A stretch of 64,000 nt of DNA from Dethiobacter alkaliphilus AHT 1. Lineage in GTDB: Bacteria; Bacillota; Dethiobacteria; Dethiobacterales; Dethiobacteraceae. The notes under the pieces are model-generated. The model saw only the letters and a program-made list of their open reading frames with translations. It made no database searches and was not told where the DNA came from. This document shows positions 19,004 to 63,559 of this stretch, piece after piece (positions within the stretch are counted from its first letter, which is position 1; every line of letters starts with the position of its first letter). The translations under genes and the position numbers were made by a program. The stretch spans positions 62,001 to 126,000 of the forward strand of contig NZ_ACJM01000007.1 of assembly GCF_000174415.1 (NCBI RefSeq), given 5' to 3'.

Positions 19004-19070
19004 TTTTTCTTCCACCTTTAAATACAGTATTCAGATGCCCTCTGTTAATTTCAGCTACCCTATCCAGAAT

Positions 19071-40913: not shown

Positions 40914-40923
40914 GTTTTCCCCT

Positions 40924-42054: not shown

Positions 42055-42055
42055 G

Positions 42056-43354: not shown

Positions 43355-43372
43355 CTTGCTCCTCCGTTATCT

Positions 43373-45742: not shown

Positions 45743-47224
45743 TTAGTTTAAAAAGACTCTATTAACATTAGCTAAAATGGATTTAGCTTTTATTATAAAT
45801 CTTCGCTTAACCACTTGCCTTTGTTGTAATAATACCTTCCGTTGTTCCTGATTAGCGTAGGATAGCGCCAGCTTTTCCAGATAAGTAATGGCAGGCAAAT
45901 AGAAATCTATTAGCGCATTATCAGTTTTCTTTTTGTTTAAACTCTGCAGTTTAATTACAATCAAGGCATAGATAAAGAATATCTTTTCTATGTTTTCCAG
46001 CTTCATGCCCTTCTCAGGATTTTCTAAGAATAGTTTTTTAATATCAACAAAATTAAGTTTGAGTTTGACTATCAGATTGGCAATGTCAAACCACACAGGG
46101 CCAACAGTATATGAATTCCAGTCAATCAAAACAGGCTCTTTGGTATCCTCTTTCATGATAATATTATGGGGGCCTAGGTCACCATGTAAAAACCTATAGT
46201 GCTTATCAGGATTAACTTTTTCATAAAGTTGCATTTCCAGAAACACAAACTTAAGTCGCTTTATTACATCCAAAGCTTCATTAGGATAGTCCTCGTTTTT
46301 TAATCTCTTTTCTAACAAACTAATCAATCTTACATTTGTTGCTTGGTTGTGAATCGAAGTAAAAAAATGAAGGATGTTCTGACTTTTACCTCTTAATACC
46401 AGGCGATATGTGGGAATACTAAAATGATGGAAATAATCTTTAGGTTTAATTGTTGCCAAAGTGTTTTGGATACTTTTAATAATGCTCTGTAGATCTTTTT
46501 CTAAAGGTACATTTCCAGTTATTTTTTCCATTGTCAGAAAAGACATGTTGTTTCTATCAATTATACTTATTAACTCAGGAGTAACTTTCTGCAGCTGTGG
46601 AAATTGCCCTACTATCTCTTCATAAAAAAGCCGTTCTCTTTTCAATTTAATATCAGCGATTTTTGTTATATATTCTTGGGGGTTTGGCCTATCTGTTTCT
46701 ACATGCACCAGGCAGCCATAATTATTTTTACCACCGCTAAAGACATACTCGGACTCCAGAGTTTTTTCATCTATTGAGAGAGACTTTTTTACCAATTCCG
46801 TTAACTCTTCTAAGGTTGTACCTTGTTCTAATTCCAAAGCCTGTATAAAAGCTTTGGTAGCCTCCTGGCTTTTCTTTAAGAAATTATAGCTGCGGCCAAG
46901 CTTAAAATAGTGAATTCCATTATCTTTATCAATTTTAATTAATTCTTCTGCTATAAGCTTTGCTTTTTCCCATTTTTTTTGAACGCTATATAGGTTGTAC
47001 AGCTCAGCAAGTAGGCTTTGGTTCTGGGGAAACTGTTCTAACCCCCGCTCCAAAACCGACTGCGCCTCCTTGTACTCACCTTCAAAGCGGAGGCATTGGC
47101 CCAAATCTCTGTATGCAACATCATCTGCATGATTAATATTGATATATTTTTCCAGGGCCCCTATGGCGTGTCGCCATTTCTTCTCTTTTATAAAATCTTG
47201 GATTTCTCTGTTATATTCGTCCAT
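45743..47224 (-). CDS. TPR protein fused to an aminoglycoside/choline-kinase-like phosphotransferase
   Basis: A 493-residue cytoplasmic fusion. ATG 47222-47224 has GAGGT five bases upstream. Residues 1-130 are about three to four TPR units ('WRHAIGALEKYININHADDVAYRDLGQCLRFEGEYKEA' pattern). Residues 170-450 are a protein-kinase-like APH/choline kinase domain with 'FLTMEKITG' and the catalytic 'FLHGDLGPHNIIMK' followed by 'PVLIDWNSYTVGPVWFDIAN'. In lic loci the APH-type LicA kinase phosphorylates choline before LicC and LicD act. Here it may phosphorylate an alcohol or sugar for the same set. Substrate unknown. Confidence 0.85.
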   Translation of the reverse strand: MDEYNREIQDFIKEKKWRHAIGALEKYININHADDVAYRDLGQCLRFEGEYKEAQSVLERGLEQFPQNQSLLAELYNLYSVQKKWEKAKLIAEELIKIDKDNGIHYFKLGRSYNFLKKSQEATKAFIQALELEQGTTLEELTELVKKSLSIDEKTLESEYVFSGGKNNYGCLVHVETDRPNPQEYITKIADIKLKRERLFYEEIVGQFPQLQKVTPELISIIDRNNMSFLTMEKITGNVPLEKDLQSIIKSIQNTLATIKPKDYFHHFSIPTYRLVLRGKSQNILHFFTSIHNQATNVRLISLLEKRLKNEDYPNEALDVIKRLKFVFLEMQLYEKVNPDKHYRFLHGDLGPHNIIMKEDTKEPVLIDWNSYTVGPVWFDIANLIVKLKLNFVDIKKLFLENPEKGMKLENIEKIFFIYALIVIKLQSLNKKKTDNALIDFYLPAITYLEKLALSYANQEQRKVLLQQRQVVKRRFIIKAKSILANVNRVFLN

Positions 47225-47269
47225 TTTTACCTCATAGAACTCTAGGTTTGGCACAACTGGTGTTAAGTG

Positions 47270-47808: not shown

Positions 47809-49806
47809 TTAAACATTAAATAAATCAGTAAATGCTGCAAATTTTTTACCATTTAAAAGGTCCTTTACAATACGAGCTTCTGCCCTTCGATAAGCTTCTC
47901 CAAGTTTTCTGTCAAATTCATTATTAAAAGAATGGAACCTCCCAGGTCTAGGTGTAATTTCACCAAGAACCATGCCTGTATGACTCTTTAGCATATCAAG
48001 CCTAATAAAAGGTGTTGGTATCTGTAAGCTAACATTAATTGCAATTTCCTTATCTTCTTCGGTAAAACCGGTCCCATCGAAAACTTGACCGTCATATCTA
48101 CCCGTACTAACTGGATTCATATCAGCATCCCAGTAACAAAACTTTTTATAGAACGCAGGGTTGCTTTCTGAGACTAATAATAACTCACCATAAAAAACGT
48201 AGAACTTAATATCAGAAGGCGGTTCAGTAGCCCCAGGAGAACTTAGAATAAGCTCTTCTGTCATCCACTCGTCTTTACGCAAAGGGTTCCTACCTTTTAG
48301 CCCCGCTTCTAACTTAGCCTCTACATCTTTTTTAACTTCTGACCAACTTTTAAGGAATACGCCCTCTCTTGCTGACAGTATTTTCCCTTCATTAAAAACA
48401 AGATACACGCCCATAGAACCTGTAGACTTAGTTGGTTTAACGACGACTGGTCCTTTTTGCTCACCAATTTCAGAAAACGAATAAGTTTTACCATCAGTGA
48501 TAGGTCTGCGGAGGCCAATACTATCAGCAAATTTATAAGCTACGTCTTTTTTGTCGAGGTTCCACGAGTATTCAGGGTAACCCATTTTACGTAAAGCTGA
48601 CTTTTCAACAACAATATCCCGAAAAGAAAAGGTATCCTTTATGATTAATTTTCTTCTCTCAAAATTTTTCAACAACCAGTAACTGAGATATTCTTTTTTT
48701 ACTACATTACTTAGAGACTGATATAATTCATAAAGCCCTTTTTTACCTTTTAAATGCTTGCTACCATATAATTCTTTATAATAAGCTGTGAAATTTGAAT
48801 CTATCTCGACGTGAAGATTACCTAATTGATTAATGTGACTTTCTAAAACATTTTTATCATTGAAATTTACATCAGATAGTTTTTTATCCCCAAAAATAAT
48901 TCTTTTTAAATCATCGTTGGTTTTAGCTTCTTTGCCTGCATTTGTATGAAAGATATAAAAGAATCCATGCTGATCCTTGTCAATTTGGTAACTATAGTTT
49001 GAAATATTTTCTTCATTTTCAAAAAGCTTATTTAATTCTTGAAGTTCTTCTTCTTTTGCTAAACGCACATTGAAATTTGTCTTTTTATTATCAGTTACAA
49101 TTGGGTAGAACCGTGGTTCAACTTGCCAACCGTGTTCTCTTTCAGCAAACTCAAGTTTTACTATAAAACTATAAGGCAATGCATTCAACTTGCTATAGCG
49201 CCCTGGTGAGTTAAAAACAAAATTTCCTATAGAATGTGCAATGATGCCTTTCTCGCTCTTTTTTATATATTCTACCGTATGAGTTCCATGGGCAAAAACA
49301 AAATCTGCACCTGCATCTATAAATGTTTGACAAATTTCTTCGATCTTTGGTGAAACAGGCTTATAATCAAAACCTTGCCAATGAGGACACACTATTATTA
49401 CGGCATCAGGCTCCTTACTTCTAAGAGCAGTAATCTTTTCTGCTGTCTTAGATGGCCTCAAGGAATTAACACCCGGACTGTCTTTTCTGGCAAAAAAGTC
49501 ATAGTCCTCCCGGTAGCGCTTTGAGGCACGCATGCCTGTAAAGACATAAACCTTTTTAGTGCTCTTGTCACCCTTTAGCTCTAGCTCAAAAGGTTTTTCT
49601 GCTTCTTTTCTGTTATTACCTGCACCAAACCACTTTATTTTTGCCTTAGAAAGCTCCTTGATAGTCTTGTCTAATACTTCAGGGCCAAAATCCATGGTAT
49701 GATTATTTGCCAAACTAACGGCTGTAACATCTAATTGCTTTAATACTTCAAGCGTACGCTCCGGTTTATCCCAGTTTGGGTACTCTTTGACCTGTACCCG
49801 AATTGC
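47809..49806 (-). pseudogene. CapA-family protein fused to TupA-like ATP-grasp, C-terminal portion (split by IS3)
   Basis: The reading frame runs from the IS3 boundary to a stop at 47809 (about 665 native residues). The first part is the CapA metallophosphatase-like fold: 'VTAVSLANNHTMDFG', 'VIIVCPHWQG', 'FVFAHGTHTVEYIK' and 'GIIAHSIGNFVFN'. From about residue 430 of the open frame an ATP-grasp domain follows: 'GPVVVKPTKSTGSMGVYL', 'WMTEELILSS', 'DIKFYVFYGELLLVSES' and 'PFIRLDMLKSHTGMVLGEITPRPG' (metal ligands), as in TupA-like ligases. The amino-terminal 'GDTSLGDYYL' part is on the other side of the IS at 51230-51463. An ATG inside the IS (49903-49905) is in frame, so the ATP-grasp part might still be made. 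Confidence 0.85.
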
Positions 49807-49837
49807 TGGACACACATGAGTTAGGTATAATAACCAT

Positions 49838-50146
49838 GTGGAGGAGATAAAAATGCCAAGCAATGCAAACCGGTACAGTGAAGAATTTAAGAAGGATGCC
49901 ATCAAACTAGTCCAGGAAGGTGGCAGGCCTGTTAATAGTGTCGCAAACGACCTTGGAATAAACGCTCAGACATTACGGAATTGGCTTAAAGAAGAGAAAA
50001 AGCGGCAGAACCCTGAGAGTGCGAGGATTCTTGAACTCGAGGCTCAGCTAAAGGCGGAAAAGCGCAGAAACAATGAGCTCGAGGAGGCCGTCGATATTTT
50101 AAAAAAGGCTACAGCACTCTTCGTGAAAGACAACCGGAAACAGTAA
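49838..50146 (+). CDS. IS3 OrfA (helix-turn-helix protein)
   Basis: 102 residues. The N-terminal helix-turn-helix is 'YSEEFKKDAIKLVQEGGRPVNSVANDLGINAQTLRNWLK', followed by a leucine-zipper-like coiled coil. GGAGG lies upstream of the ATG. The last codons include the slippery A-AAA-AAG run at 50101-50107, where ribosomes can shift to the -1 frame and make the OrfAB transposase. Confidence 0.92.
   Translation: MEEIKMPSNANRYSEEFKKDAIKLVQEGGRPVNSVANDLGINAQTLRNWLKEEKKRQNPESARILELEAQLKAEKRRNNELEEAVDILKKATALFVKDNRKQ
50101..50107 (+). promoter_or_regulatory. Programmed -1 ribosomal frameshift site of IS3
   Basis: Heptamer A-AAA-AAG, read in OrfA as AAA-AAG and preceded by TTT. Shifting back one base enters the OrfB frame, which is open from here through 50194 to 51018. 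This is the classical frameshift motif of IS3 elements. Confidence 0.75.
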
Positions 50147-50193
50147 TTTACAAACACATCAATGAACTAAGCTCCCAGTTCCCGGTTGAGAAG

Positions 50194-51018
50194 ATGTGCA
50201 AATACCTTGAGGTAACACGGAGCAACTTTTATAATTGGAAAAACAGGGGTCCCAGTAAACGGGCTCTTGAGAACGAAAAGATACTTGAGATTGCGAAGAA
50301 AAGTTATGCTGAGTGCCATGGTATCTGCGGCTTAGATAAAATGCTGGAGGACGTACGAGAACACTTTCCTAAGTGCAGCCGTAACAGGCTTTATGGCATC
50401 CAGAAACGAAATGGATTGTACTCCAAGCGCAAACGGAAGTTTAAAGCTACCACAGACTCAAACCATCAGCTTCCGGTAGCAGAGAATCTTTTAAACCAGA
50501 ACTTTAAAGCTGACAAGCCTGGAGCCGTATGGGTTACCGATATAAGCTATGTAAACACCATTGAAGGCTGGTTATACCTGGCCACCGTTAAAGATATATG
50601 TACAAAAGACATTGTTGGCTGGGCAACGGCTGACAATATGAAAACGGAACTTTGCATTAAAGCTTTGGAAAGCGCAATTAAACGGTACCGACCGTCGCCC
50701 GGTTTGATTCATCATTCAGATCGAGGAGTACAATATTGCAGCAAAGATTATCAGAAACTACTTAAGAAGCACGGAATGGTATGCAGTATGAGCCGTAAAG
50801 GCAACTGCTACGATAACGCCTGCGCTGAAACGTTTTTCGGCACTATAAAATGCGAGATGCTGTACCATAAAAAATACGAAACCCGTAAAGAGGCTCATCG
50901 GGACATATTCTGGTACATCGAGATATTTTACAACCGTAAAAGGCGGCACCAGTCGCTTGGTTATATGACTCCCGCAGAATATAGGAAAACCATTGAAGAG
51001 CAGTTACTAGCAGCTTAA
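50194..51018 (+). CDS. IS3 OrfB transposase (DDE integrase core)
   Basis: 274 residues from the internal ATG. The functional product is probably OrfAB, reached by -1 frameshift at 50101-50107. The integrase core shows 'VWVTDISYV' (D), 'GLIHHSDRGVQYCS' (D) and 'NACAETFFGTIKCEM' (E), with the C-terminal 'FYNRKRRHQSLGYMTPAEY'. An N-terminal HTH_21 region is present ('SYAECHGICGLDKML'). The gene is intact, so the element may still be active. Confidence 0.95.
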   Translation: MCKYLEVTRSNFYNWKNRGPSKRALENEKILEIAKKSYAECHGICGLDKMLEDVREHFPKCSRNRLYGIQKRNGLYSKRKRKFKATTDSNHQLPVAENLLNQNFKADKPGAVWVTDISYVNTIEGWLYLATVKDICTKDIVGWATADNMKTELCIKALESAIKRYRPSPGLIHHSDRGVQYCSKDYQKLLKKHGMVCSMSRKGNCYDNACAETFFGTIKCEMLYHKKYETRKEAHRDIFWYIEIFYNRKRRHQSLGYMTPAEYRKTIEEQLLAA

Positions 51019-51229
51019 GAGTATCGCTCAATGGTTGTCAAGGGCTCGCGAAGCGAGTATGTCGAGGCGAAGGCCGGAGACCCTTTACAACCTGTATAAT
51101 CCAGAACCCTTGAATCGGGCTGGCGATGCCAGTTAGCGGCATTGACAGCTTGATTACAAAATGGGTAAATAACAGATTTTCAAGCAATCATGAGATTTAA
51201 TGAGAATAGCTAACTCTGGAGTGTCCAAT

Positions 51230-51463
51230 TTAACGGGAAAAGGTCACTTTTCCCTCTAGTGAAGTTGTAGGATGCCCAGCCAAAACACTTTCAAAATTTA
51301 AAATAAAGTAATCACTCTCTTTAACGAGAGGCTTAACTCCTGCAAAGAAGGAGAGTGGTTCATTATGCAAGCGTTCTATATTTTCTTCATTGCCTTGCTT
51401 ATCTAAATAATAATCCCCCAGACTTGTATCACCAGCAAACGTTATAGTAAACTTTTTAGCCAT
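51230..51463 (-). pseudogene. CapA-like gene, amino-terminal fragment
   Basis: Start ATG 51461-51463 with AAGGAG eight or so bases upstream. The 77 residues contain the CapA start 'TITFAGDTSLGDYYLD', 'LSFFAGVKPLVKESDYFILNFESVLAG' and 'TSLEGK'. The frame stops at 51230, at the IS3 boundary. The continuing CapA sequence ('VKEYPNWDKPERTLEVLKQL') is found across the IS at 47809-49806. CapA-family proteins take part in poly-glutamate and polysaccharide modification. It ends 46 bases after the upstream ATP-grasp gene in the same direction, so it was part of that operon. Confidence 0.88.
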
Positions 51464-51508: not shown

Positions 51509-54397
51509 CTATTTTTCTACCCACTTAGTACGCCCAGCTAAACATAGCTCAGTCACCACTTTTTCTGTAAGGTTTATAGGCTCGCCTTTCCATGGGAAGT
51601 GAAACATTGCTACATCGGGAGATGGATCGATTTTAGCTATTACCCAATCCTGGTTATCCTGCGGCTCATTTGGCTGGGGGATTTTCATATGGACAACGGC
51701 AAACTCAAGGCCAGGGATAGCTTCAACAGCTTTTGCTGCCTTATCTTTAAAATCCTGATGCAGAAAATCACTTATGCCAATTGTATCCCCGATTAACTCC
51801 ATCATTTGCTCTCTTCTAAGATAAACCTTCTCACCCTCAGCTGGGATGTCATAAATCTGGTATCCTAAAACATGCAGTCTTTTCAGCACCTTTTTATCGA
51901 TTACTATTGGTTTGTTACAATAAAATGGATTCAGAGCTCTTGCCGCATTCTTCTTTTGTATTAAATGGGCAATGCTTGATACCCCATCACCAATTATGTT
52001 GGGGGGCTCTATCAATAATGAACCGACAGCTTTACCGGCAACAATGGCAACACATACCTGCCACCCATCGGTATACTCTTCAAGCATGATATAGTTTGTC
52101 CCTTTTTTCTTAGCTCTTCTCCAAAAACTGTTCAACTTATCCACTTTGTTAATTTTCTTTTCCTTAAATCCACGTGGGTTTAGGCTGGTAACTATGCAAG
52201 GACCGTTAATTTTCTTAAAATAATCAAGAGCATTATCGAATTTATTATATTTATACTTGACCCCTCTGTTTACAAGGAGCCCATTAAACGCCAATAGCTT
52301 CTTAACAGGATGCAAATTGGTGCATACTCTGTCACAGAAAAGAGAACTGTGCCGCATCCCTGTGATTCCCGATTTTTCTCCATTGGAAATTTTAATAAGG
52401 TCCTGATAAATAAGTTCAGCTTGAAATCCCTGACGCTTAAATTCTTCTTCGAATAATTGAAAATTTACTTCTTTGGTTATTTCATGACAGAGTGCGGTGA
52501 ATTCGAAGCTATTATCTGCGAACTCTGCAAAGTCAGGCCCATTTGCTAGCCTTGTTTTTGTTATTTCTTCTTTTGCTGCTACGATACTCTTGCGATATTT
52601 AGCTTGTACATTTTCGGTTAAGAGACCCTCTTTAATATAAAAGGGCTCGGTTGAAGATTCTTTGTGCTCATGGACACGCACCCCATCTACCAAGGTATTG
52701 TTTTGGCCACTATAGTCCCACAGATTATCCAGCAGATCCAGTACCTGTTTTTGCCTGCCGGTAACTACCATAGATGCAGTTGAGGGTGCCTGGGGCTCAA
52801 TATAGCCACGTAAGTTTAACTTTTGAGCGAGATTTCTTGTCCACTGATAAAACTCTTCATCCAGGATACCTGTGACTTCCACTTGTAAGTTAACCAGGGG
52901 GTAGGCATCATCTTGTGTATCTTCCGGGAAAAGATGATCGATAAAGCTTTGGGCAGAATTGAAGGATGGTCCGTATAAAGGGTAGATAACATTTTCGATA
53001 TTTGCTGTTGAATTTAACTCAATGATGGCACAATGCTGCACATCCCTTGGCTGATCTATTTTTTCAACCAAAAGATCTATACCCCAATAATCATTAATGC
53101 CAAAGGCTGCTGCCGCCTCTTCCCCCAAGCGCATTAAATCCGGGTGAATATAGTCGTTAATGCTGATGCTGTCTGCACCTTTACAGATATTTGCCTTTAA
53201 GTGCAAGAAAACTGTTTCGCCTTTTTGAGGCACACTATTAAATGAGTGCCCCTGTCTTTCAAGATAAATTTCTGAGTAAGAATCAGGGATAATCAGGTTC
53301 TTACTGAGGCGGGGGTTTTCTGCACGTATTTTGTTTTTATCATCAATTAACTGCTCTACAGTTTTTTGGCCGTCGCCAACCACATGAGCAGGTACTCGCA
53401 GCAAAGCTGAACGTGCCTGTCCACCGATTACTACAATACGTATATCTACACCCTGAACCAGTTCCTCAATAACAACAGAACTGTGATACCGTTTTGCATA
53501 TTCCCATGCCGTTTCCAGGGCACTTTCAGTACGAACATCAACAGTGACGCCAGTACCGTTAAGGCCTGCCGCAGGCTTTACGACCACCGGCCGTTCAATC
53601 TGTTTCAGATACTGTTTTGCCTTTTCTAGATCCCGAAATACCTTACCCATGGGGACAGGCAGGCCACATTGCTCAAGAAAGTCTTTTGTTAGTTGTTTGT
53701 GGTCTGTAAGGGAATGGACATTGGAAGGAACACGAGTGGTTTGTGAACGCTGTAAGCCTATTTTATTTTCCGGAGATACAAAGTATATTTCTTTTTTCAT
53801 GGAACGAATGAAAAAAACATTCCGCTTAATTGCGGCACCAACTAGCTCATCGGCGCCAACCAGTCTCTCAAAGTCTGAATATTGATTTGGTTCCGCTGTA
53901 AGTTCCGATACCAAATCAAGGGTCTTTATATAGCGGTCTGCTGTCCCCTGGGACCAGGAAACCTGATCTTTATCTTCGGGAATATCTTTATCTTCGGCTC
54001 CGGATTTTTTAGGTTTATTAAACCAGTGCTCAGTAATCTTTTCAACCTTTGCTTTTCTTGGTCCTTTCCAGGCGGCCTGTACCACCGGTTCAATGTCTTC
54101 ACCGGGGCCAATTAGGATTGCTTCAACAGTGCTAAGGCCTTTATTTATTGCCACACTTTGCAGTCCATTTAGACGTGCTCTTCTTTGCAGCCATCCGGGA
54201 TATCCTACACCTACTACCTCTCCGGATATTATTAATCGTACAGCTGCATGTTTCTTTTTAACCGCTTGTGTTAGCCAGCTCTTAACAGGTGCCCCTTCAT
54301 ATGGGTCTAACCCTCTATTGGCTGGATTAAGAAAGACACAGAGATTCTTGTAATATATAAACTTTGCTAACTTTTTTACCTTTTTTCTTCTAGCCAC
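51509..54397 (-). CDS. Giant ATP-grasp ligase: acylphosphatase-like/ATP-grasp/acylphosphatase-like/ATP-grasp
   Basis: A 962-residue cytoplasmic protein. Residues 50-130 are acylphosphatase-like ('VRLIISGEVVGVGYPGWLQ'), but the catalytic arginine of G-V-G-[FY]-R is proline. Residues 232-490 are a cyanophycin-synthetase-type ATP-grasp: 'PVVVKPAAGLNGTGVTV', 'VVIEELVQGVDIRIVVIGG', 'LRVPAHVVGDGQKTVEQLI' and 'AIIELNSTANIEN' (E-x-N metal ligands). Residues 502-575 look like a second, further degenerate acylphosphatase fold. Residues 640-962 are a second ATP-grasp ('NYIMLEEYTDGWQVCVAIVAGK', 'IIGDGVSSIAHLI'). It has no Mur-ligase part. It should form an acyl phosphate and join it to an amine, but substrates are unknown. 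Its paralogue follows upstream with a 2-base gap. Confidence 0.8.
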   Translation of the reverse strand: MARRKKVKKLAKFIYYKNLCVFLNPANRGLDPYEGAPVKSWLTQAVKKKHAAVRLIISGEVVGVGYPGWLQRRARLNGLQSVAINKGLSTVEAILIGPGEDIEPVVQAAWKGPRKAKVEKITEHWFNKPKKSGAEDKDIPEDKDQVSWSQGTADRYIKTLDLVSELTAEPNQYSDFERLVGADELVGAAIKRNVFFIRSMKKEIYFVSPENKIGLQRSQTTRVPSNVHSLTDHKQLTKDFLEQCGLPVPMGKVFRDLEKAKQYLKQIERPVVVKPAAGLNGTGVTVDVRTESALETAWEYAKRYHSSVVIEELVQGVDIRIVVIGGQARSALLRVPAHVVGDGQKTVEQLIDDKNKIRAENPRLSKNLIIPDSYSEIYLERQGHSFNSVPQKGETVFLHLKANICKGADSISINDYIHPDLMRLGEEAAAAFGINDYWGIDLLVEKIDQPRDVQHCAIIELNSTANIENVIYPLYGPSFNSAQSFIDHLFPEDTQDDAYPLVNLQVEVTGILDEEFYQWTRNLAQKLNLRGYIEPQAPSTASMVVTGRQKQVLDLLDNLWDYSGQNNTLVDGVRVHEHKESSTEPFYIKEGLLTENVQAKYRKSIVAAKEEITKTRLANGPDFAEFADNSFEFTALCHEITKEVNFQLFEEEFKRQGFQAELIYQDLIKISNGEKSGITGMRHSSLFCDRVCTNLHPVKKLLAFNGLLVNRGVKYKYNKFDNALDYFKKINGPCIVTSLNPRGFKEKKINKVDKLNSFWRRAKKKGTNYIMLEEYTDGWQVCVAIVAGKAVGSLLIEPPNIIGDGVSSIAHLIQKKNAARALNPFYCNKPIVIDKKVLKRLHVLGYQIYDIPAEGEKVYLRREQMMELIGDTIGISDFLHQDFKDKAAKAVEAIPGLEFAVVHMKIPQPNEPQDNQDWVIAKIDPSPDVAMFHFPWKGEPINLTEKVVTELCLAGRTKWVEK

Positions 54398-54399
54398 AG

Positions 54400-57234
54400 C
54401 TAATCCCCCTTAATCCATTTAGTCCTATTTGTTAAACATAATTCGTTTACTATATTGTGAACCACCGCAGCCTGTTTTCCTTTCCAGGGAAAGTGAAACA
54501 TAGCCCACGGTGCTCTAACATCAATCTTGGAGACCACCCATTTCTGTCGGTTTGCTGGGTGTTCTGGGTAAGGAATAACCATCTGAACAACTGCCAACTC
54601 CAAACCTGGAACAACTGCCACAGACTGTAGCGCGTGTTGTATAAAATCCTGGTGTATATAGTCGGCAATATTGACTGTTTCCCCACCCCACTGCCAGTGA
54701 TATTTTTTTTCCAGAATTACTGCTTGTCCTGCATGTGGCACACTATCTGGTTTAAGATTTAATTCATGCAAGGTAGCCAGGACTTCCTCATTAATACTAA
54801 TTAGTTTATCTTGGTACCAGGGATTTTGAGAGCGCAATTTATTTTTATGCTCTATTAATTGCTCTATAGAAGAAGAGCCATCTCCTGTTACAGTAACCGG
54901 TTCAAGCAGCAGTGCACCTCTGTATTTGCCTGCCACTATAGCAACGTAAACATGATGTCCCGCAATAGTTTCTTCAAGCAGTAGATACTTGGTTCCTTTG
55001 CTTTTCTCTTTGCCCCACATTGCTTTCAATTCTTTTTTGTTATTTATTATATGGGTGGTATTTGCCGGAGAATTGATACCTGTTAATAAACAGGGAAAAT
55101 TAATGTGCTTGACATGGGACAGGCCTCTTTGCAACTCTCCTGCTTTACAGGCAATGCCACGCGGTACAGGTAATGTATTTAGTGAGAGCAGATATTTAGC
55201 AGGATACACCCTCTCACATATTTTATCACAAAAAATAGAACTGTGGCGCATTCCGGCAATTCCTGCGGCGTTATCATTAAAAATTTGTATTACATCCTGA
55301 TCTATAACCTTCCCATCTAATCCATGGTGACTAAATTCATTTAAAAACAACTGTGCATTAATATCAATATCACCAGCAAAACTTTCCGTTTCATATGCTG
55401 TAACCGGAAACGACCCTGTATCAAAACTGCTGATTTGCTCCTCTGCAGTTGGGGTTTCTGGTTTTAGCAGATTGCCTGTGTTATGAGCAAAGAGGGACGA
55501 CAATTCTTTTTCACTTGCTGTTAACGGGGAGATTTGCAGATTATCTACTACCTGGCCTTCTGCGGGAGAATAGAGTTTAAAGATAAAAGCAGCTACAAGG
55601 TGTTTTCGGCCATGGACCAATATCTCGGCTTCATTATTGCCGGATTGAATACTCCCTTGTAGATTAAAGGAGCGCGCAAGCTTTACCGTATCCTCAAAAA
55701 ATGTATCGTCAATTTGGCCTGAAATTAAGAGACGTATGCTTTCTAAGGGATAAGATTCATCAGTTATGTTTTCAGGGAACAAATAATCAACTAATTCCTG
55801 TGCGGCATCCACAGGTTTTCCATACATGGGAAACTGAACATTATAAATGTTTGCCCGTGAGTTTACTTCGATTATACTACAATGTTGACTGTGTCTTGGC
55901 TTATCAATTGCTTCCACTAATAGATCAATTCCCCAGAAATCATCCACACCAAATGATGATGCTGCCTCTTCTGCCAATGCTAATAAGTCGGGATGTAAAT
56001 ACTCCGTAATATTTATACTGTCAGCTCCTGCACCAATGTTAGCCTTTAGATGGAGAAAGACCACTTCACCTTCTTTAGGAATGCTGGACAAAGAATGGCC
56101 CTGTCTGGATAAGAAGTTTTCCGTAAAGGCATCAGGAACAATTAAGGCTTTGGCCAGTCTGGGATTGGCTAAGCGATTCTTATTTTTATCATCAATCAGG
56201 CGCTCAATTGTTTTCGAGCCATCCCCTATTACATTGGCCGGAACTCTCATAAGTGCTGCTTTGGCAGTTTTACCAATGACTAATACTCGTACGTCTATCC
56301 CTTTTATTAGTTCTTCAACAACTATTTGTTCATGATATTTCTTAGCATATAACCATGCTACTTCCATGGAAGACTCTGTACGCACATCAACTGTAATACC
56401 TTGTCCATATGATCCGGAAACTGGCTTTACCACAACGGGATAACCACATGTACGAAAATATTCTTTGGCATCCTGCCATTTAGTAAAGATCATACCTTTT
56501 GGCACAGGAAGTCCCTTGGAAACCAGAAACTCTTTTGTTAAATGTTTATGGTCGGTGAGCGCACGCACCGTGGTGGAGACTCGTGAGGTTTGTGATTGCT
56601 GTAGTCCCAGCATGTGATTTGGAGATAACAGGAAATTAATATTGCTAAACCTGGCTACAGATAAGTTTTTATTCAGAGCAGCACGTTGAATTTCACCTGC
56701 GTTACTAAATAGCCCTGTTTGAGTAAATTGATTTGGTCTTTTCAATAAGGGCTCTAACTGTTTAATGGTAGTACGTATTAGCTCCACTGAATCACCGGAC
56801 CAAAGAATCTCTTCATTTTCCGGCTGAATAGCTGGCAGAGAAACTTTTCTTGGCTTATTAAACCATTTTTCTTTAATTTTTTCTACTTTGGCTTTGGCAG
56901 GGCCTTTCCACGCTGCTAAAGCAACAGACTCAACATCCTTTCCTTCTCCGATTAAGATAACCTCTATGGTTTTTTTACTCCGGGGGAAAACGAGGCAATC
57001 AAGGCCATTTAGGTGAGCCTTTTTTTGTATCCATGAGCGAAAGCCAACCCCTATTACGCTGCCGCTAATTAGCAACTGAACAGCTGATACCTTTCTTCCA
57101 GGTACAATACTTGTTGCCCAACTCCTAAAAGGAGAACCCTGATAAGGGTCAAGCCCTTTGCTTTTAGGATTTAAAAGCAAACAAAGCGTTCTAAAGTATA
57201 ATATTTTTGGAATACGAATCAGCTTACTGGTCAT
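54400..57234 (-). CDS. Giant ATP-grasp ligase, paralogue of the 51509 protein
   Basis: A 944-residue protein with the same order of parts. Its first acylphosphatase-like domain has 'LLISGSVIGVGFRSWIQ', so the arginine (residue 66) is kept, but the partner asparagine block reads 'CLVFPRSKK', so it is probably inactive. The first ATP-grasp has 'PVVVKPVSGSYGQGITV', 'VVEELIKGIDVRVLVIG', 'GDGSKTIERLIDDKNKNR' and 'IIEVNSRANIYN'. The second acylphosphatase-like part begins 'RLLISGQIDDTFFEDTVKLA'. The second ATP-grasp has 'KYLLLEETIAGHHVYVAIVAG' and ends in 'AMFHFPWKG'. Conserved 'GLDPY.G' and 'RSWA' at the N-terminus match the paralogue. The pair arose by duplication and probably works together. Confidence 0.8.
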   Translation of the reverse strand: MTSKLIRIPKILYFRTLCLLLNPKSKGLDPYQGSPFRSWATSIVPGRKVSAVQLLISGSVIGVGFRSWIQKKAHLNGLDCLVFPRSKKTIEVILIGEGKDVESVALAAWKGPAKAKVEKIKEKWFNKPRKVSLPAIQPENEEILWSGDSVELIRTTIKQLEPLLKRPNQFTQTGLFSNAGEIQRAALNKNLSVARFSNINFLLSPNHMLGLQQSQTSRVSTTVRALTDHKHLTKEFLVSKGLPVPKGMIFTKWQDAKEYFRTCGYPVVVKPVSGSYGQGITVDVRTESSMEVAWLYAKKYHEQIVVEELIKGIDVRVLVIGKTAKAALMRVPANVIGDGSKTIERLIDDKNKNRLANPRLAKALIVPDAFTENFLSRQGHSLSSIPKEGEVVFLHLKANIGAGADSINITEYLHPDLLALAEEAASSFGVDDFWGIDLLVEAIDKPRHSQHCSIIEVNSRANIYNVQFPMYGKPVDAAQELVDYLFPENITDESYPLESIRLLISGQIDDTFFEDTVKLARSFNLQGSIQSGNNEAEILVHGRKHLVAAFIFKLYSPAEGQVVDNLQISPLTASEKELSSLFAHNTGNLLKPETPTAEEQISSFDTGSFPVTAYETESFAGDIDINAQLFLNEFSHHGLDGKVIDQDVIQIFNDNAAGIAGMRHSSIFCDKICERVYPAKYLLSLNTLPVPRGIACKAGELQRGLSHVKHINFPCLLTGINSPANTTHIINNKKELKAMWGKEKSKGTKYLLLEETIAGHHVYVAIVAGKYRGALLLEPVTVTGDGSSSIEQLIEHKNKLRSQNPWYQDKLISINEEVLATLHELNLKPDSVPHAGQAVILEKKYHWQWGGETVNIADYIHQDFIQHALQSVAVVPGLELAVVQMVIPYPEHPANRQKWVVSKIDVRAPWAMFHFPWKGKQAAVVHNIVNELCLTNRTKWIKGD

Positions 57235-57260
57235 TAAATATCCCCTGGCTTTCGAATTAA

Positions 57261-57281
57261 GCAGTCAGGTTATCTGACTGC
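57261..57281. repeat. Intergenic hairpin between ATP-grasp genes
   Basis: GCAGTCAG and CTGACTGC form a perfect 8-base stem with a 5-base loop in the 59-base gap between two minus-strand ATP-grasp genes. No T-run follows in either direction, so it is not a standard terminator. It may act as an mRNA processing or stability element. Confidence 0.45.
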
Positions 57282-57293
57282 AAACCATGCTGG

Positions 57294-58964
57294 TTAGTTA
57301 GTCTTTTTGATTTTAAAATTATTGTCCACTGATTTTTGGTGGCTTGAAACTATAACGTCTTTAACTTTAGCTCGCTCCGGCCCAAGCCAACAATTGTTAA
57401 TTACATCTTCCACAGCAACAGAACTGCCTGAAAGAACCGCCTCAACCGAACCATCCTTTTTATTGCGCACCCAACCTTTAAGACGGCGGGATTGTGCTTG
57501 CTTTAATAGCCATTTACGGTAACCTACTCCCTGAACTTTGCCGGATATAAGCAAATGTACGCTTTGCTTATTAATCTGCATTATCCAGTTAAGCCATCGA
57601 TTAAGCCCCGTCTTACCATAAAGCCTTGCGCTGTCGGCATTACCGCTATAAAGCTTTTTAACTGCACTTTTTGCATGGGCGGCTAGTGGTTTTGCCATGG
57701 GCATTTGCCCCAGGGAAGAAAGATGGGCTTTTTGCAAATAACATAGCCCTGGTTGGCTGTTTGCTTCGAGTATTACCGGGCCGTTTTCTGTTATTAAAAT
57801 ATCCCAACCAATTATTAACCGGTAAGGGAAATAAGAATGTGCTTGTTTAACCAGTGTCAATGTTTCCTGCCAGTAAGGAATTATGCGCCCCTTAATTTGC
57901 TCTTTACTCTCAGGCAATGTATCAAAACGCAAACTGAGATTGTCTGCTGAAAAGCCCACTGCAGGCCCCAGGCTTCCCGTAATCAGAGAAACGGGAGACA
58001 CAAGGCCACCCGCATTGGCATTATCCACCACAGAAACAGGGTCCGTGGAAAAACGTAACATGGCGCTATTTACTTTAATGCGCATTTTTTTATCTAAATA
58101 AGTTACTACTCTAACTGTTGGAGTAGCTTTTTTACGAAAAGGTGCCAGCTGTGTGTGCGGCAGCATCAACGGCTGAACAAGGTACGAACCGCTCTTATGC
58201 TTACTTGCCAGCTTGTGTAAGTGCGTTCTTAGCTGCTCTTTAGTAAGTTTAATCCCTGCTGCACTGAGAAAGAAGTTGTCACCTTGCCAGTGCCAGGCCA
58301 CTGCACCCTCACCTTCGTTATCTACATTAGGTTTGCAGAAAACATCATGTTCGGGGAATTCAATAACATCATTAACCTTAGAACCATACACATCTATTAC
58401 TGTACCATCGGCTAGAAACTCATATAAAATTGGAACAACTGCAATTCCCTTTTTTGTGCAAAACCTTGTAAATTGAGTTTTGTCACCTAAGGAAAAAAAA
58501 GCATTTTCCGGTTGAAGTAGCCGCCCATGTAGTGTTAACAGACGATATACTCCTCTTTTAAGCGCATTTTTGTTTACAAAATGTCTGGCTCTGTGTAGGC
58601 CGTCCTGTTGATAAAACTCTTGCAGATAATAATTCTGCGCATCTATTGAGAAAAAAAATGCCAGGTAAAATTGTTCAATAATCTGACGGACAACGGATTT
58701 ATTGGCACTGGCAGCAGCATTTTTACCTAATTTTCTTGTCCAGTATAATATATCCTGTCCAATTGTCACCGGGGAGATTAAAAATGCCAGGATTATCTTT
58801 AACCGGCTTTTTAATGTTTTGCATTGCCGCCAATAAAAGATAATATAGGCTCTGTGGAGATAATCGGCGGCATTACGCGGACGGCGCAATAAGCCCAAAA
58901 CAAGAAGGTTAGGCAGCATGAAGGGAGCTTTTGTACTTTTTTCCTTGGTTGCAAACTTGCCCAT
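57294..58964 (-). CDS. Sugar-transfer-associated ATP-grasp fused to a complete acylphosphatase
   Basis: A 556-residue protein. The amino-terminal 130 residues hold a basic, partly hydrophobic region ('IILAFLISPVTIGQDI') that may touch the membrane. Residues 150-430 are an ATP-grasp of the sugar-transfer-associated type: 'DVFCKPNVDNEGEGAVAWHW', 'YLVQPLMLPH', 'TPTVRVVTYLD' and 'LIIGWDILITENGPVILEANSQPG' (E-x-N). Residues 468-540 are acylphosphatase with 'GKVQGVGYRKWLLKQA' (R483) and 'GWVRNKKDGSVEAVLSG' (N501), so both catalytic residues are present. This contrasts with the degenerate copies in the two neighbours. It heads the ATP-grasp set, 59 bases before the next gene. Confidence 0.85.
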   Translation of the reverse strand: MGKFATKEKSTKAPFMLPNLLVLGLLRRPRNAADYLHRAYIIFYWRQCKTLKSRLKIILAFLISPVTIGQDILYWTRKLGKNAAASANKSVVRQIIEQFYLAFFFSIDAQNYYLQEFYQQDGLHRARHFVNKNALKRGVYRLLTLHGRLLQPENAFFSLGDKTQFTRFCTKKGIAVVPILYEFLADGTVIDVYGSKVNDVIEFPEHDVFCKPNVDNEGEGAVAWHWQGDNFFLSAAGIKLTKEQLRTHLHKLASKHKSGSYLVQPLMLPHTQLAPFRKKATPTVRVVTYLDKKMRIKVNSAMLRFSTDPVSVVDNANAGGLVSPVSLITGSLGPAVGFSADNLSLRFDTLPESKEQIKGRIIPYWQETLTLVKQAHSYFPYRLIIGWDILITENGPVILEANSQPGLCYLQKAHLSSLGQMPMAKPLAAHAKSAVKKLYSGNADSARLYGKTGLNRWLNWIMQINKQSVHLLISGKVQGVGYRKWLLKQAQSRRLKGWVRNKKDGSVEAVLSGSSVAVEDVINNCWLGPERAKVKDVIVSSHQKSVDNNFKIKKTN

Positions 58965-59003: not shown

Positions 59004-60254
59004 CTAGTTCAGAAAGTTTTCTTTAATAGCCTTCCATAGTCTTTCTGATGACTTTCCATCCCGGTAGTGAAAAAACATCTTGCAGATTTCTTCCCTCTTT
59101 GCCTGGTATTGATCTTTAGCACCTGTTAGATGATGGTGGATTTGTTCCTGCAATTCTTTTTGATTGTAGCACTTGGGGCCAGGGGTGATTTGGTCGTAAT
59201 CCAGTAGAAGTTCCCTCTCCCCACCTACATAGCTTTGGCGATCATAGGGAAAAAAGATTATTGGCCTGTCCAGTAAAAGGTAATCAAGGTAAATCGAAGA
59301 GTAATCCGTTATAAGAAGATCTGTTAGTGTTAGTAGGGGGTATATATCTGCTGTTTTGCTATATTCAACTATGTTGCTATAATCTGAAGGCTCAACTACA
59401 CAATGGTGTTTGGGGTGTAATTTAAGGATAATAATAAACTGATGCAGACGCGCAAACTGATCCAGTTCTTGAAGTTTTAACTGGCTTAAAGTTTGTTCGT
59501 TTCTTCTCCAGGTAGGTGCATAAGTGACAAGGTAATAACCGCTCTGCTTTAATTTATTAAACTTTGCCAATGATTCATAGTCGCTGCCTGGCACTTGATC
59601 TTTTAGTTGGTGTGCAAAAAAGATATCATTTCTGGGAAGACCATTTAATACCAACTTTCCATACCGAAAAGCCTTGGAGCGCATTTTTACTTGGTACTGG
59701 GAGCTAAGAGTTAGCAAATCATAATAAATATATTCTTTCTTTAGCCTTAGTGCTATGGGGTTTAACCTTTTTATTTGCGGCTTTAGCAGCCCTATTGTTT
59801 TTAGACCTGTACCATGCCAGATCTGGACTTTCCTTGCTTTAAAGAAGATAAAATATTTAAGGTTTTTCGCCCATTCATTACCGTCTACAATTAACAGGTA
59901 TGTCTGAAACATTAGAAGAATGGTGCGGAAGCTTGGGTAATACCAGACATTATACCCGTTATCCTTAAGGTTCCTGTATACTTTTCTTTTTTCTGTGAGA
60001 AAAACAAACTCCACACCTGGTTCATCGATGCCGTTTAGATACATATAAAAATACTTCAAACTGCCGTCAAAATCTCCAAACCTGGAAGTTAAGACGACAT
60101 ATCTTTTTTTCGGCATCAGATAGGATATTGGAATAAAAACCAGATAGCCGAAAAGATATAAGCATTTTTTCACAAAAAATTTCACTGTATCCAATACTGT
60201 CAAAGCTGCATTTGTGAAGAAACCAGACTTTACTTGAAGATTAATTTTTGACAA
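59004..60254 (-). CDS. CDP-glycerol:polyglycerol-phosphate transferase family protein (TagB/TagF-like)
   Basis: A 416-residue paralogue of the 44493 enzyme. Motifs: 'KVQIWHGTGLKTIGLLK', 'VLNGLPRNDIFF', 'LVTYAPTWRRNEQ', 'FIIILKLHPKHH', 'LITDYSSIYLDYLLLDRPIIFFPYD' and 'FFHYRDGKSSERLW'. An amphipathic/hydrophobic N-terminal stretch near 'FIPISYLMP' may hold it at the membrane. Two such enzymes in one locus fit a primase plus polymerase pair for a teichoic-acid-like chain, as TagB and TagF, or two different donors. It lies between the ATP-grasp set and the nucleotidyltransferase. Confidence 0.9.
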   Translation of the reverse strand: MSKINLQVKSGFFTNAALTVLDTVKFFVKKCLYLFGYLVFIPISYLMPKKRYVVLTSRFGDFDGSLKYFYMYLNGIDEPGVEFVFLTEKRKVYRNLKDNGYNVWYYPSFRTILLMFQTYLLIVDGNEWAKNLKYFIFFKARKVQIWHGTGLKTIGLLKPQIKRLNPIALRLKKEYIYYDLLTLSSQYQVKMRSKAFRYGKLVLNGLPRNDIFFAHQLKDQVPGSDYESLAKFNKLKQSGYYLVTYAPTWRRNEQTLSQLKLQELDQFARLHQFIIILKLHPKHHCVVEPSDYSNIVEYSKTADIYPLLTLTDLLITDYSSIYLDYLLLDRPIIFFPYDRQSYVGGERELLLDYDQITPGPKCYNQKELQEQIHHHLTGAKDQYQAKREEICKMFFHYRDGKSSERLWKAIKENFLN

Positions 60255-60312: not shown

Positions 60313-61074
60313 TTAAACCATTGTTTTAAGGTCGGCGGAAGTATCAACTTCATACCAGCTATCTAAACCAACCTCTAATAGATCTATCTTAAATACATCT
60401 TTAATCTCATTAAAAAGATTGTGCCAATAGTAGCTCTTTAGAGAGGTATCCGGTTTCATTATTAATTGATTAACCATGTATTTTAGTGCTCGCTTACTAT
60501 TTGCATCTTTAACAGAGATTACACCGGCTGACTTCAACCGGCATTTTGCAGCATTAAGGTCTTTACCTGCTTTAACAAATTGGCCATTTTCGTCCAACAT
60601 CACTTTCATATCATCTTTGTAAAATTGACTTGCTTTGCTGACACATAACGAAACCGTGGGTTTTTTTACGTCAGTTGGAGCATTGGTCCACTTTACAATA
60701 TTTTCTACCAGTGACTCCTTAATTAGGGTATCTCCATTTACAATAACCACGCTATCATTTTTTGACTGGATTAAGCCCAGCCACAGAGAAATAAGGGGCC
60801 CGGTATTTGCGTAAAATGGATTGCATACATGATCAAATTTTGCCAGGTCGCTAAGGCTATCCAGTTCCTCCATAACCTTAGGCCTCCCATGGCCCACTAC
60901 AGGTATAATTGTAGCATCCCAGTCCCACGACACAAAGGATTTTATTAAATGGTTGAAAATACTTAGGCCGTCTTCACAAAGAAGTAGCCCTTTTGGCCTG
61001 TCATTTGTCAGCGGTCTCAGGCGTCGTCCTTCCCCCGCCATCAAGACAACCACATCTACTTTTCTTGCCAACAT
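60313..61074 (-). CDS. LicC-like nucleotidyltransferase
   Basis: A single-domain nucleotidyltransferase of 253 residues with 'DVVVLMAGEGRRLRPLTNDRPKGLLL' near the start, 'NPFYANTGPLISLWLGL', 'VVIVNGDTLIKE' and 'DSWYEVDTSADL' at the end. The 'GEG.RL.PLT...PK' and 'N.FY..TG...SL' blocks are like phosphocholine and alditol-phosphate cytidylyltransferases. With the TagF-type transferases on its operon it may supply CDP-glycerol, CDP-ribitol or a CMP-phosphonate. It is the second such enzyme in the locus, so two activated donors are likely. Confidence 0.82.
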   Translation of the reverse strand: MLARKVDVVVLMAGEGRRLRPLTNDRPKGLLLCEDGLSIFNHLIKSFVSWDWDATIIPVVGHGRPKVMEELDSLSDLAKFDHVCNPFYANTGPLISLWLGLIQSKNDSVVIVNGDTLIKESLVENIVKWTNAPTDVKKPTVSLCVSKASQFYKDDMKVMLDENGQFVKAGKDLNAAKCRLKSAGVISVKDANSKRALKYMVNQLIMKPDTSLKSYYWHNLFNEIKDVFKIDLLEVGLDSWYEVDTSADLKTMV

Positions 61075-61117: not shown

Positions 61118-62650
61118 CTATCCTAGCTTTGCTTTTTTCTTACTTGTTTCTTTAACATGTTTTTTGTAAAGGGCCACAGCCTCTTTGGGATCGCCGTCAA
61201 ACATAACTTCACCTTTGTTTATCCAAATAGCCCGAGTGCAAACTTTTTCTACAAAACTATTACTGTGCGACACAACAATAACAGCTCTGGCATTTGTTAT
61301 CATTTCCTGCATTCTTTCGCTGGCCTTTTCCTGAAAAGAGATATCACCTGCGCTTAAGGCTTCATCTATGATAAATAAATCAGGTTGTATTGATGAAGCA
61401 ATACTAAAACCAAGGCGCGAGCGCATTCCACTGGAATAATGTTTAACTGGCTTGTCAATATGGCCACTAAGCTCTGCAAAATCAATGATCTCTTCTTTTA
61501 AGGCAAATATCTTTTTCTTGGGAATCCCCATCATTAAACCGTTAAGGATGATATTATCGCTGCCCGACAGCTGATTATTGAAGCCTGTCTTTAAGCCCAG
61601 CAGTGCCGATGTATCGCCTTTTACTTTGACGCTACCTTCATCTGGCTTATAGATGCCGCATAACGCACGGCATAAAGTAGATTTTCCGGCCCCGTTGTGC
61701 CCAATAATACCCACAATTTCTCCTTCCTTAATGGAGAAATCAACGTTTTTAAGGGGCCAAAAAGTATTTTTGCCAAGCTTAAATTTAACACCCAGGTTTT
61801 TTACAGTTACAACTTCTTTATCTTTAACTTGCGAGATTGTTTCTGTGACCTGTAAAATTTTCCGCTTTTTTTTCCTTTCCGGGATTGACTGTTTGTACAG
61901 CGCGGCAACTTCCTCAGGAGCACCATCAGCTTTAACTGTGCCGGCATCAATCCACACAGCACGTGTGCAATTCTTTTCAATAAAACCAATATTATGGGTA
62001 ACAACAATTACCATCTTGGCTTTTTCTACCAGTTCTTTTATCTTTTGTGAAGCCTTTTTGCCAAACTCCATATCACCGGTGCTTAAAGTTTCATCTAGTA
62101 CCAGTATCTCAGGCTCAAGCATCGCGGCAATACTAAATCCTAGACGCGCTCTCATGCCACTGGAATAATACTTGACCGGCTGCTGAATAAAGTCTCCCAG
62201 TCCTGAAAATTGATGAATACTATTATAAAACTTTTTAATTTCCTTTTTGGGTATGCCAAGCATCATGCCATTTAGAAAAACATTCTCTCTACCGGTTAGT
62301 TCATTTTTAAATCCTGCCCCCATGGAAAGCAGGGCTGAGACCTCTCCGTTAATGTTAATAGAGCCTTTGTCTGGGCGCAAAATACCGGAAATTGTTTTAC
62401 AGAGGGTGGTTTTACCTGCTCCGTTTGAACCTATAACTCCCAATACTTCTCCGGCAAAACCGTCAAAACTAACACCATTTAAAGCCCAAAAATCTTCAGA
62501 CTTCATTCTTCTGCCTAAAAGAATCTCAAAGCTAAGCGAACGAATATCTTCGCGGCGATGAGAGGAGTCATATTTTATACCTAAGTTCTGGGCAGTTATT
62601 ACCTTTTCTGTCCCCTCTGCATTGCTAAGGGATTTCATATCTTGCACCAC
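61118..62650 (-). CDS. Polysaccharide/teichoic-acid ABC exporter ATPase with two fused ATPase modules
   Basis: A 510-residue TagH/Wzt-type protein with two complete ATPase modules. The first has 'GVIGSNGAGKTTLCKTISG', 'YYSSGMRARLGFSIAAM' and 'ILVLDETLSTGD'. The second (from about residue 270) has 'GIIGHNGAGKSTLCRALCG', 'HYSSGMRSRLGFSIASS' and 'LFIIDEALSAGD'. Usual exporters have one such subunit acting as a homodimer, so this one is an internally duplicated monomeric pair. Each module carries 'LTGRENVFLNGMMLG'-type exporter marks. It begins 6 bases after its permease gene and exports the polymer made at 36-61 kb. Confidence 0.95.
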   Translation of the reverse strand: MVQDMKSLSNAEGTEKVITAQNLGIKYDSSHRREDIRSLSFEILLGRRMKSEDFWALNGVSFDGFAGEVLGVIGSNGAGKTTLCKTISGILRPDKGSININGEVSALLSMGAGFKNELTGRENVFLNGMMLGIPKKEIKKFYNSIHQFSGLGDFIQQPVKYYSSGMRARLGFSIAAMLEPEILVLDETLSTGDMEFGKKASQKIKELVEKAKMVIVVTHNIGFIEKNCTRAVWIDAGTVKADGAPEEVAALYKQSIPERKKKRKILQVTETISQVKDKEVVTVKNLGVKFKLGKNTFWPLKNVDFSIKEGEIVGIIGHNGAGKSTLCRALCGIYKPDEGSVKVKGDTSALLGLKTGFNNQLSGSDNIILNGLMMGIPKKKIFALKEEIIDFAELSGHIDKPVKHYSSGMRSRLGFSIASSIQPDLFIIDEALSAGDISFQEKASERMQEMITNARAVIVVSHSNSFVEKVCTRAIWINKGEVMFDGDPKEAVALYKKHVKETSKKKAKLG

Positions 62651-62656
62651 CTAATT

Positions 62657-63433
62657 TTATAGAACCTTAATGATTTTATGCTCATTTTTATTATAAAAAT
62701 ACATCATAAATACGATGATAATTAATGAGACAGCACCTAGTGGCAACAGCCGGGAAAAATCAGGCATAGCCTGATACATAATGATATTGCGATAAGAAAT
62801 CAGCAAATGTGAGAATGGGTTGGCATCGCTTACCCACTGATATCTAGGCGGAAGACGACTTGCCTCCCAGATAACAGGAGAAGCGTACCGCATAATTCTC
62901 ATAAAGTAAGTCAGTACATTTTCAATATCTCTGATAAACACACAAATATATCCCATAATTAAACTTAAAGCCATGTGAAAAAGTATTTGAATAAGCATTA
63001 CAAATGGCAACCAAACAATCTCCGGTCCGGGAGCAAGCCTGGAAAATGCTAAAAATATTGCTATTACTATCAGACCAAACAAAAAGTTTATCAACTGTGT
63101 CAATGAGGCCGCTAAAGGGAAGATTACTTTCGGCATATAAACTTGGCTGATAATGTGGGACTTTGTGGCAATGGATCTGGCAGATGAATTAACTGTTGAG
63201 CTAAACCAGCGGAATACCACCAACCCAATTACAAGGAAAGGAACTATATTCTCCCCTGCCCTACCGAGTAAAACAATTCTTAAAAAGTAGTAAACCAGCA
63301 CACCTAGTAATGGGTCTAACAGCCACCAGAAATACCCTAAAAAAGTATTGCGATGCTGAGCTTTTAATCCTGAGGTTACCAAATAAATAAGCAAATCTTT
63401 TCGTTTAAATAAATCCTGCATATATTTTCTCAT
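62657..63433 (-). CDS. Polysaccharide/teichoic-acid ABC exporter permease (TagG/Wzm-like)
   Basis: An ABC-2 type permease of about 258 residues with six membrane helices. 'DLLIYLVTSGLKAQHRNTFLGYFWWLLDPLLGVLVYYFLRIVL' region and 'RYASPVIWEASRLPP...NPFSHLLISYRNIIMY' are typical of TagG/Wzm. The start is ATG 63431-63433 or GTG 63446-63448; neither has a clearly better ribosome site. It pairs with the fused ATPase encoded next. An ABC-exported polymer is made fully in the cytoplasm, unlike the Wzx/Wzy polymer of the first locus. Confidence 0.93.
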   Translation of the reverse strand: MRKYMQDLFKRKDLLIYLVTSGLKAQHRNTFLGYFWWLLDPLLGVLVYYFLRIVLLGRAGENIVPFLVIGLVVFRWFSSTVNSSARSIATKSHIISQVYMPKVIFPLAASLTQLINFLFGLIVIAIFLAFSRLAPGPEIVWLPFVMLIQILFHMALSLIMGYICVFIRDIENVLTYFMRIMRYASPVIWEASRLPPRYQWVSDANPFSHLLISYRNIIMYQAMPDFSRLLPLGAVSLIIIVFMMYFYNKNEHKIIKVL

Positions 63434-63559
63434 AATAAAGATGTGCACCTATCTTTCTCTCTTAGATACAATGAACTGCCGAGCGATTTTTATGCGACCA
63501 AAAACATTTCGACAAAATTAGTCCGGCACCTGCTATTTTTTTATCTCAATATTTATCAA

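Follow-up and report, generated by a model that had tools for sequence, protein, structure and literature searches.

A rare, co-inherited set of ATP-grasp and acylphosphatase proteins beside teichoic-acid-type export genes in Dethiobacter alkaliphilus

Three consecutive genes in a 64,000-nucleotide stretch of the Dethiobacter alkaliphilus AHT 1 genome (the window) encode proteins that combine ATP-grasp ligase domains with acylphosphatase (AcP) domains. The set is rare and is inherited together, and it lies among genes of the kind that make and export teichoic-acid-type polymers. The ligase and AcP folds are known, yet their co-inherited arrangement is undescribed in the literature that we searched. 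The most likely function, to which we give somewhat less than an even chance (about 0.45), is that the three proteins, P1, P2 and P3, equip a teichoic-acid-like wall polymer, or its precursor, with amino acids or short peptides before export. The genes and their domains are as follows.

57294-58964, minus strand: P3, 556 aa, ATPgrasp_ST with a C-terminal, catalytically intact AcP (Pfam; orthologues)
57711-58517, minus strand: P3 ATPgrasp_ST domain, residues 150-418 (PF14397, E 3.7e-41)
57309-57560, minus strand: P3 AcP domain, residues 469-552, with R483 and N501 present (PF00708, E 1.2e-22)
54400-57234, minus strand: P2, 944 aa, in the order AcP1, active ATP-grasp, AcP2, pseudo-ATP-grasp
56851-57087, minus strand: P2 AcP1, R66 kept, P84 at the asparagine site (Pfam, residue alignment)
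55765-56619, minus strand: P2 ATP-grasp 1, CphA-like, catalytic residues intact
55519-55752, minus strand: P2 AcP2, both catalytic residues lost (PF00708, 27.1 bits)
54415-55368, minus strand: P2 pseudo-ATP-grasp, a homologous copy of ATP-grasp 1 with catalytic residues lost (hhalign, E 2e-39)
51509-54397, minus strand: P1, 962 aa, a paralogue of P2 with the same four-domain order
54005-54247, minus strand: P1 AcP1, P67 at the arginine site, N85 kept
52916-53770, minus strand: P1 ATP-grasp 1, catalytic residues intact
52658-52903, minus strand: P1 AcP2, both catalytic residues lost, modelled as an acylphosphatase fold
51524-52480, minus strand: P1 pseudo-ATP-grasp (profile comparison, residue table)

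The genes run together on the minus strand (51509-58964) with intergenic gaps of 2 and 59 bp, and a purine-rich stretch resembling a ribosome-binding site precedes each of them. An earlier, sequence-only reading had described three consecutive genes with ATP-grasp and AcP domains, and both Pfam and the gene positions bear this out. In Pfam, P1 (E 8e-17) and P2 (E 1e-16) each match AcP over two stretches, and the first ATP-grasp of each lies at about residues 230-490. The order AcP, ATP-grasp, AcP, ATP-grasp that was read for the paralogues also holds; the two working ligase sites that it implied do not, since the second ATP-grasp is a pseudoenzyme. All four AcP domains of P1 and P2 lack the arginine, the asparagine or both, and P3 has one ATP-grasp and a C-terminal AcP that keeps R483 and N501, exactly as was claimed. 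P3 belongs to ATPgrasp_ST (PF14397; 141.6 bits against a cut-off of 31.4) and differs from that family by its fused, intact AcP. The full-length P2 model, built from a four-row alignment, is too weak for domain packing (pLDDT 44.8, pTM 0.21) and was used only as loose secondary-structure support.

When genomes were searched for the same domain set, as the sequence-only reading had proposed, it was found to recur in seven. Of 98 genomes searched in the class, 4 carry full-length relatives of P1 and P2; the numbers are 4 of 398 for the phylum sample and 1 of 20 for the order sample, with the own genome counted each time, and 3 of 13 for the class of G300. The one named relative in the genome collection is a Bacillota metagenome-assembled genome (L027). 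Wide occurrence of the fusion with a known function, which would have spoken against a new system, was not found among plasmid records or in the literature searched. A search with P3 (E <= 1e-40) returned exactly the four of 398 genomes that carry P1/P2-like genes. The chance of hitting the same four is about 1e-9 if the genomes are independent and 3e-7 by genus (3 of 267), and relatedness raises the true value. Within the class, P3 was found in the own genome and in G042, G039 and G090 being fragmented. D388, E400 and N402 of P3 are invariant in five P3-like proteins. The G042 orthologue (L054:259-2093) is split across two overlapping frames, by a frameshift or an assembly error. Among the plasmid records, none matches P2, P3 or the RimK-AcP protein over 80% of its length.

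Of the proteins with solved structures, those most closely related to ATP-grasp 1 are cyanophycin synthetases and glutathione-synthase-like proteins. Among NCBIfam models, the P1 and P2 ATP-grasp domains come nearest to cyanophycin synthetase and GshF and score far below both cut-offs; for the CphA1 equivalog (TIGR02068) P1 reaches 302 and P2 319 bits of the 850 needed. ATP-grasp 1 can be aligned with the CphA1 G domain from end to end. The residues invariant in the full-length homologues, K230, K270, R316, R330, N399, D437, E456 and N458, correspond in an alignment via solved relatives to K220, K261, R309, R323, N394, D431, E450 and N452 of TeCphA1, respectively. In the TeCphA1 G domain, K220 and K261 contact the phosphates, D431 and E450 bind Mg, and R309 and R323 hold the substrate carboxylates (PMC9427784), so that the residues for ATP, Mg and carboxylate are all present in ATP-grasp 1. 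R458 of CphA1, which binds the α-carboxylate of the substrate aspartate, is replaced by Y464 in P2 and by E in P1, and H267 by Y276 in P2 and N in P1. With this arginine lost, the amine to be coupled may be something other than a standard amino acid. The ATP-grasp module of GshF (GshAB) is the next-best family match (NF002688, far below its cut-off), yet P1 and P2 have no Pfam match to the N-terminal glutamate-cysteine ligase domain of GshF and carry an AcP instead.

The second ATP-grasp of P1 and P2 is homologous to the first over 274 columns (hhalign, E 2e-39), and the long proteins therefore look like a duplication of an AcP-ATP-grasp unit. The lysine equivalent to K270 is missing from all 13 full-length members (T, S or a gap), the D437 position holds Q, H, N or K, and the E456 position holds K, R, S, T, N, A or Q, an acid in none. 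Arginine is found at the R316 and R330 positions in one protein each (G190_a and G042_a). With the lysine and both Mg-binding acids lost in 13 of 13, two active ligase sites per long protein can be ruled out. Even so, 36 columns of the domain are invariant, among them an FH(F/Y)P..G motif, which argues for a retained role outside ATP chemistry. Judged by these residues, each long protein is predicted to have a single working site, whose nearest counterpart is the domain of cyanophycin synthetase that adds aspartate.

The P1-type proteins group in one clade (support 100/99) and share the loop signatures LNG and ELNSTAN, and most of the other long proteins have SYG-like loops and EVNSRAN. Genes of the two types stand in tandem in the own genome, L027, G042, G090 and G300. 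The conserved differences in the active-site loops, together with this pairing, suggest that P1 and P2 are likely to perform two different steps.

The evidence for the acceptor comes from the gene neighbourhood, which includes the following genes.

59004-60254, minus strand: CDP-glycerol:glycerophosphate glycerophosphotransferase family, TarF-like (PF04464, E 9e-59)
60313-61074, minus strand: nucleotidyltransferase (PF00483/PF12804), in the same position in G152 and G190
61118-62650, minus strand: TagH-like ABC ATPase with two ATPase domains in one protein (NF010066, 383.8 bits, above cut-off)
62657-63448, minus strand: TagG/Wzm-like ABC permease (PF01061, E 6e-12)
47809-51460, minus strand: CapA-TupA gene of the same cluster, lying downstream and split by an IS3-family element
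44493-45722, minus strand: second glycerophosphotransferase-family gene (PF04464, E 2e-49)

A TagGH-like transporter and a CDP-glycerol phosphotransferase thus stand beside P1, P2 and P3, as they do in G152 and G190, where the order is permease, double ABC ATPase, nucleotidyltransferase, P3, long ligase(s) and glycerophosphotransferase, close to that of the window. The CapA-TupA gene is interrupted by a transposase (50194-51018, plus strand) that separates its 3' part (47818-49809) from its 5' part (51248-51460); both parts match one 1113-aa protein of G300, and relatives carry intact copies. The G300 cluster also encodes a TagD-like cytidylyltransferase, LicD, PGA_cap and TupA proteins. TupA has been linked to teichuronopeptide, a wall polymer of polyglutamate and polyglucuronate (PMC8153356), and TupA-like ATP-grasp and PGA_cap domains, as in teichuronopeptide and CapA-TupA systems, occur in the same clusters as our set. 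In all seven genomes, members of the set have PF04464 or teichoic-acid-type export genes as neighbours, which supports the expectation that the set tracks with glycopolymer genes.

ATP-grasp ligases act through unstable acyl phosphates, and acylphosphatases hydrolyse acyl phosphates. In the mechanism that we propose, P1, P2 and P3 would be cytoplasmic amide (or ester) ligases that work upstream of the adjacent TagGH-type export. The single working site of P1 and of P2 would turn a carboxylate into an acyl phosphate and couple it to an amine, giving two ligations, one at each site; the pseudo-ATP-grasp half would be non-catalytic and probably serve dimerisation or polymer binding. We infer the ligase step from the intact residues and family chemistry, and attachment to the polymer from the gene context. 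The idea of the sequence-only reading that a ligation system modifies a surface glycopolymer thus stands in part: the ATP-grasp types (CphA-like, ATPgrasp_ST and TupA) and the conserved neighbours fit it, while the paralogues are not double ligases.

A different product can also be considered, namely a polypeptide, free or stored and similar to cyanophycin, that the ligases do not attach to the glycopolymer; their linkage to wall genes would then only reflect a shared island for surface biosynthesis. The kinship of ATP-grasp 1 with cyanophycin synthetases and glutathione-synthase-like proteins is in line with such a product, and a pair of paralogues could build a two-residue repeat. We regard it as improbable, because the arginine clamp is absent, as is the MurE-like M domain that adds arginine in CphA1 (P1 and P2 have no Mur-ligase Pfam match, and their C-terminal half is the ATP-grasp homologue), and glycerophosphotransferase or export genes adjoin the set in every one of the seven genomes. 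The cyanophycin N domain of CphA1 is missing from P1 and P2 as well, and AcPs and a pseudo-ATP-grasp are found instead.

The middle AcP is the weakest domain call of the set. In isolation it still scores above the Pfam cut-off of 22.5 bits (P1 29.3, P2 27.1), and a model of the P1 domain shows a beta-alpha-beta-beta-alpha-beta fold (pLDDT 83.5) whose top PDB matches are acylphosphatases (E. coli AcP, E 5e-6), with HypF structures also among the matches. The middle region of P1 thus models as an acylphosphatase fold, as had been supposed from the letters.

Both catalytic residues are kept in P3 of the own genome, G152, G190 and G042, in the RimK-AcP protein of G152 and in an AcP-TupA protein of G300, so that 5 of 7 genomes have a companion ATP-grasp protein with a clearly intact AcP; none linked to the set was seen in G090 and G039, whose assemblies are fragmented (84-86% complete). 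The P3 orthologue of G300 has no AcP, the intact one being on the TupA-type protein of the same cluster, and this indicates that P3 can do without an AcP. In the long proteins, the arginine is absent from every AcP2, and 12 of 14 have lost Arg, Asn or both from AcP1. AcP1 of G042_b and G090_b may keep both residues, an assignment that hinges on a one-residue gap, and degeneracy in the long proteins is thus possibly not absolute. The C-terminal AcPs of two short G090 proteins and one G042 fragment are degenerate. Sharing of a single AcP active site by P1 (giving N) and P2 (giving R) was considered; it holds in the own genome and L027 and fails in G300, G190 and G042, and was dropped as a general rule. 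In all, AcPs are fused to four ATP-grasp types: the CphA-like long proteins, ATPgrasp_ST (P3), TupA (G300) and shorter RimK/CphA-like proteins (G152, G090). Short ATP-grasp-AcP proteins of about 500-530 aa (L050:4180-5772 and L053:2-2388) resemble the ATP-grasp 1-AcP2 half; their AcP is intact in G152 and degenerate in both G090 genes.

What so many degenerate AcPs do can be explained in several ways. In our mechanism they would be binding or structural modules, and the intact AcP of P3, or of a RimK- or TupA-type companion, would hydrolyse stray or stalled acyl phosphates. Such editing is plausible. The sequence-only reading had proposed it together with channelling of the intermediates by the degenerate copies, and the pattern of residues would fit both, as it fits other roles too. 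A fuller proofreading system, in which the dead AcPs hold or shield acyl phosphates and the intact AcP of the companion edits wrong or stalled ones, would follow the same principle as the editing domains of aminoacyl-tRNA synthetases, and we hold it to be unlikely. The N domain of CphA1 cleaves cyanophycin into primers and is thus a hydrolytic domain inside a ligase (PMC9262961), a precedent showing that hydrolysis in such proteins need not be editing.

Another option is that most AcPs are leftovers of the AcP-ATP-grasp duplication, with a role limited to folding. AcP2 shows the lowest conservation of all the domains (mean pairwise identity 0.32, three invariant columns), and the catalytic residues of AcP1 were lost through different substitutions in different lineages, as would be expected of leftovers; against this, the fold is kept, no full-length homologue has an AcP deleted, and AcP1 (0.46) is more conserved than the linkers (0.33 and 0.13). 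We find this option doubtful. If the degenerate AcPs instead bound phosphate or phosphonate groups of the polymer, they could tether each ligase to its acceptor. Phosphate and carboxylate are ligands of AcP loops, the product of the cluster is a phospho-polymer, and the window contains phosphonate genes. The phosphate-binding arginine is absent, however, from AcP1 of P1 and from every AcP2, and tethering appears quite improbable to us.

The intact AcP could also carry out a productive step, hydrolysing a phosphorylated intermediate for the next ATP-grasp. HypF, a known enzyme of several domains, has an AcP that treats carbamoyl phosphate in this way; its structures are among the matches of the AcP2 model, and the repeated fusion of AcPs to different ATP-grasp types would fit a step of this kind. 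The carbamoyl-transfer and adenylation domains are not present, though, and one P3 orthologue does without the AcP, which makes this a rather unlikely account. The P3 AcP shares the fold of acylphosphatase (PF00708) and of the HypF AcP, with both catalytic residues; the AcPs of the set differ from that of HypF in having ATP-grasp ligases as partners and in being mostly degenerate. The only other AcP of the own genome is in a frame of 770 residues, which would suit HypF in length. Among the large AcP proteins of the phylum survey, HypF-sized frames are the norm, and one of them (L056) was confirmed as HypF. A 602-aa protein (L055:2621-4429) has a C-terminal AcP as its sole Pfam domain, its other 510 residues being without a Pfam match, and an amino-acid-kinase/ACT gene lies upstream of it.

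No published ATP-grasp/acylphosphatase fusion was found in a search that lay mostly outside the subscription literature, and the teichuronopeptide and CapA-TupA papers found do not describe tupA together with P1/P2/P3-type proteins; a 2009 survey of ATP-grasp amidoligases by Iyer and colleagues may contain an earlier mention. Editing by fused acyl-phosphate hydrolases, if true, would be new for peptide ligases, and the set predicts a wall polymer bearing amino acids or peptides in little-studied Bacillota. The same small domain also recurs on four ATP-grasp types within one kind of gene cluster. With one paralogue pair, one intact AcP and several dead ones, the locus is compact and testable.

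Some further genes of the window are of note. Phosphonate genes lie at 39178-45722 (minus strand). One of them (42056-43354) joins a PEP mutase, which has the EDKxxxxxNS motif, to a cytidylyltransferase; the others include a TPP-dependent decarboxylase-like gene and genes for an iron alcohol dehydrogenase and a CDP-alcohol transferase. This suggests that the polymer may carry a CMP-activated phosphonate such as hydroxyethylphosphonate (compare PMC6697681). LicD (38463-39167) is found just downstream of the phosphonate genes. A LytR-CpsA-Psr gene is present at 31401-32366 (minus strand), and proteins of this type attach wall polymers to peptidoglycan. A second TupA-like ATP-grasp gene (18095-19015, minus strand) belongs to a glycosyltransferase cluster. 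Beside the second glycerophosphotransferase gene, a gene at 45743-47254 (minus strand) codes for a protein in which TPR repeats are joined to an APH-type phosphotransferase domain. An Abi_C (abortive infection C-terminus) gene (10509-11258, minus strand) and, next to it, an IS66 transposase (8757-10292, plus strand) lie at the border of the polysaccharide cluster.
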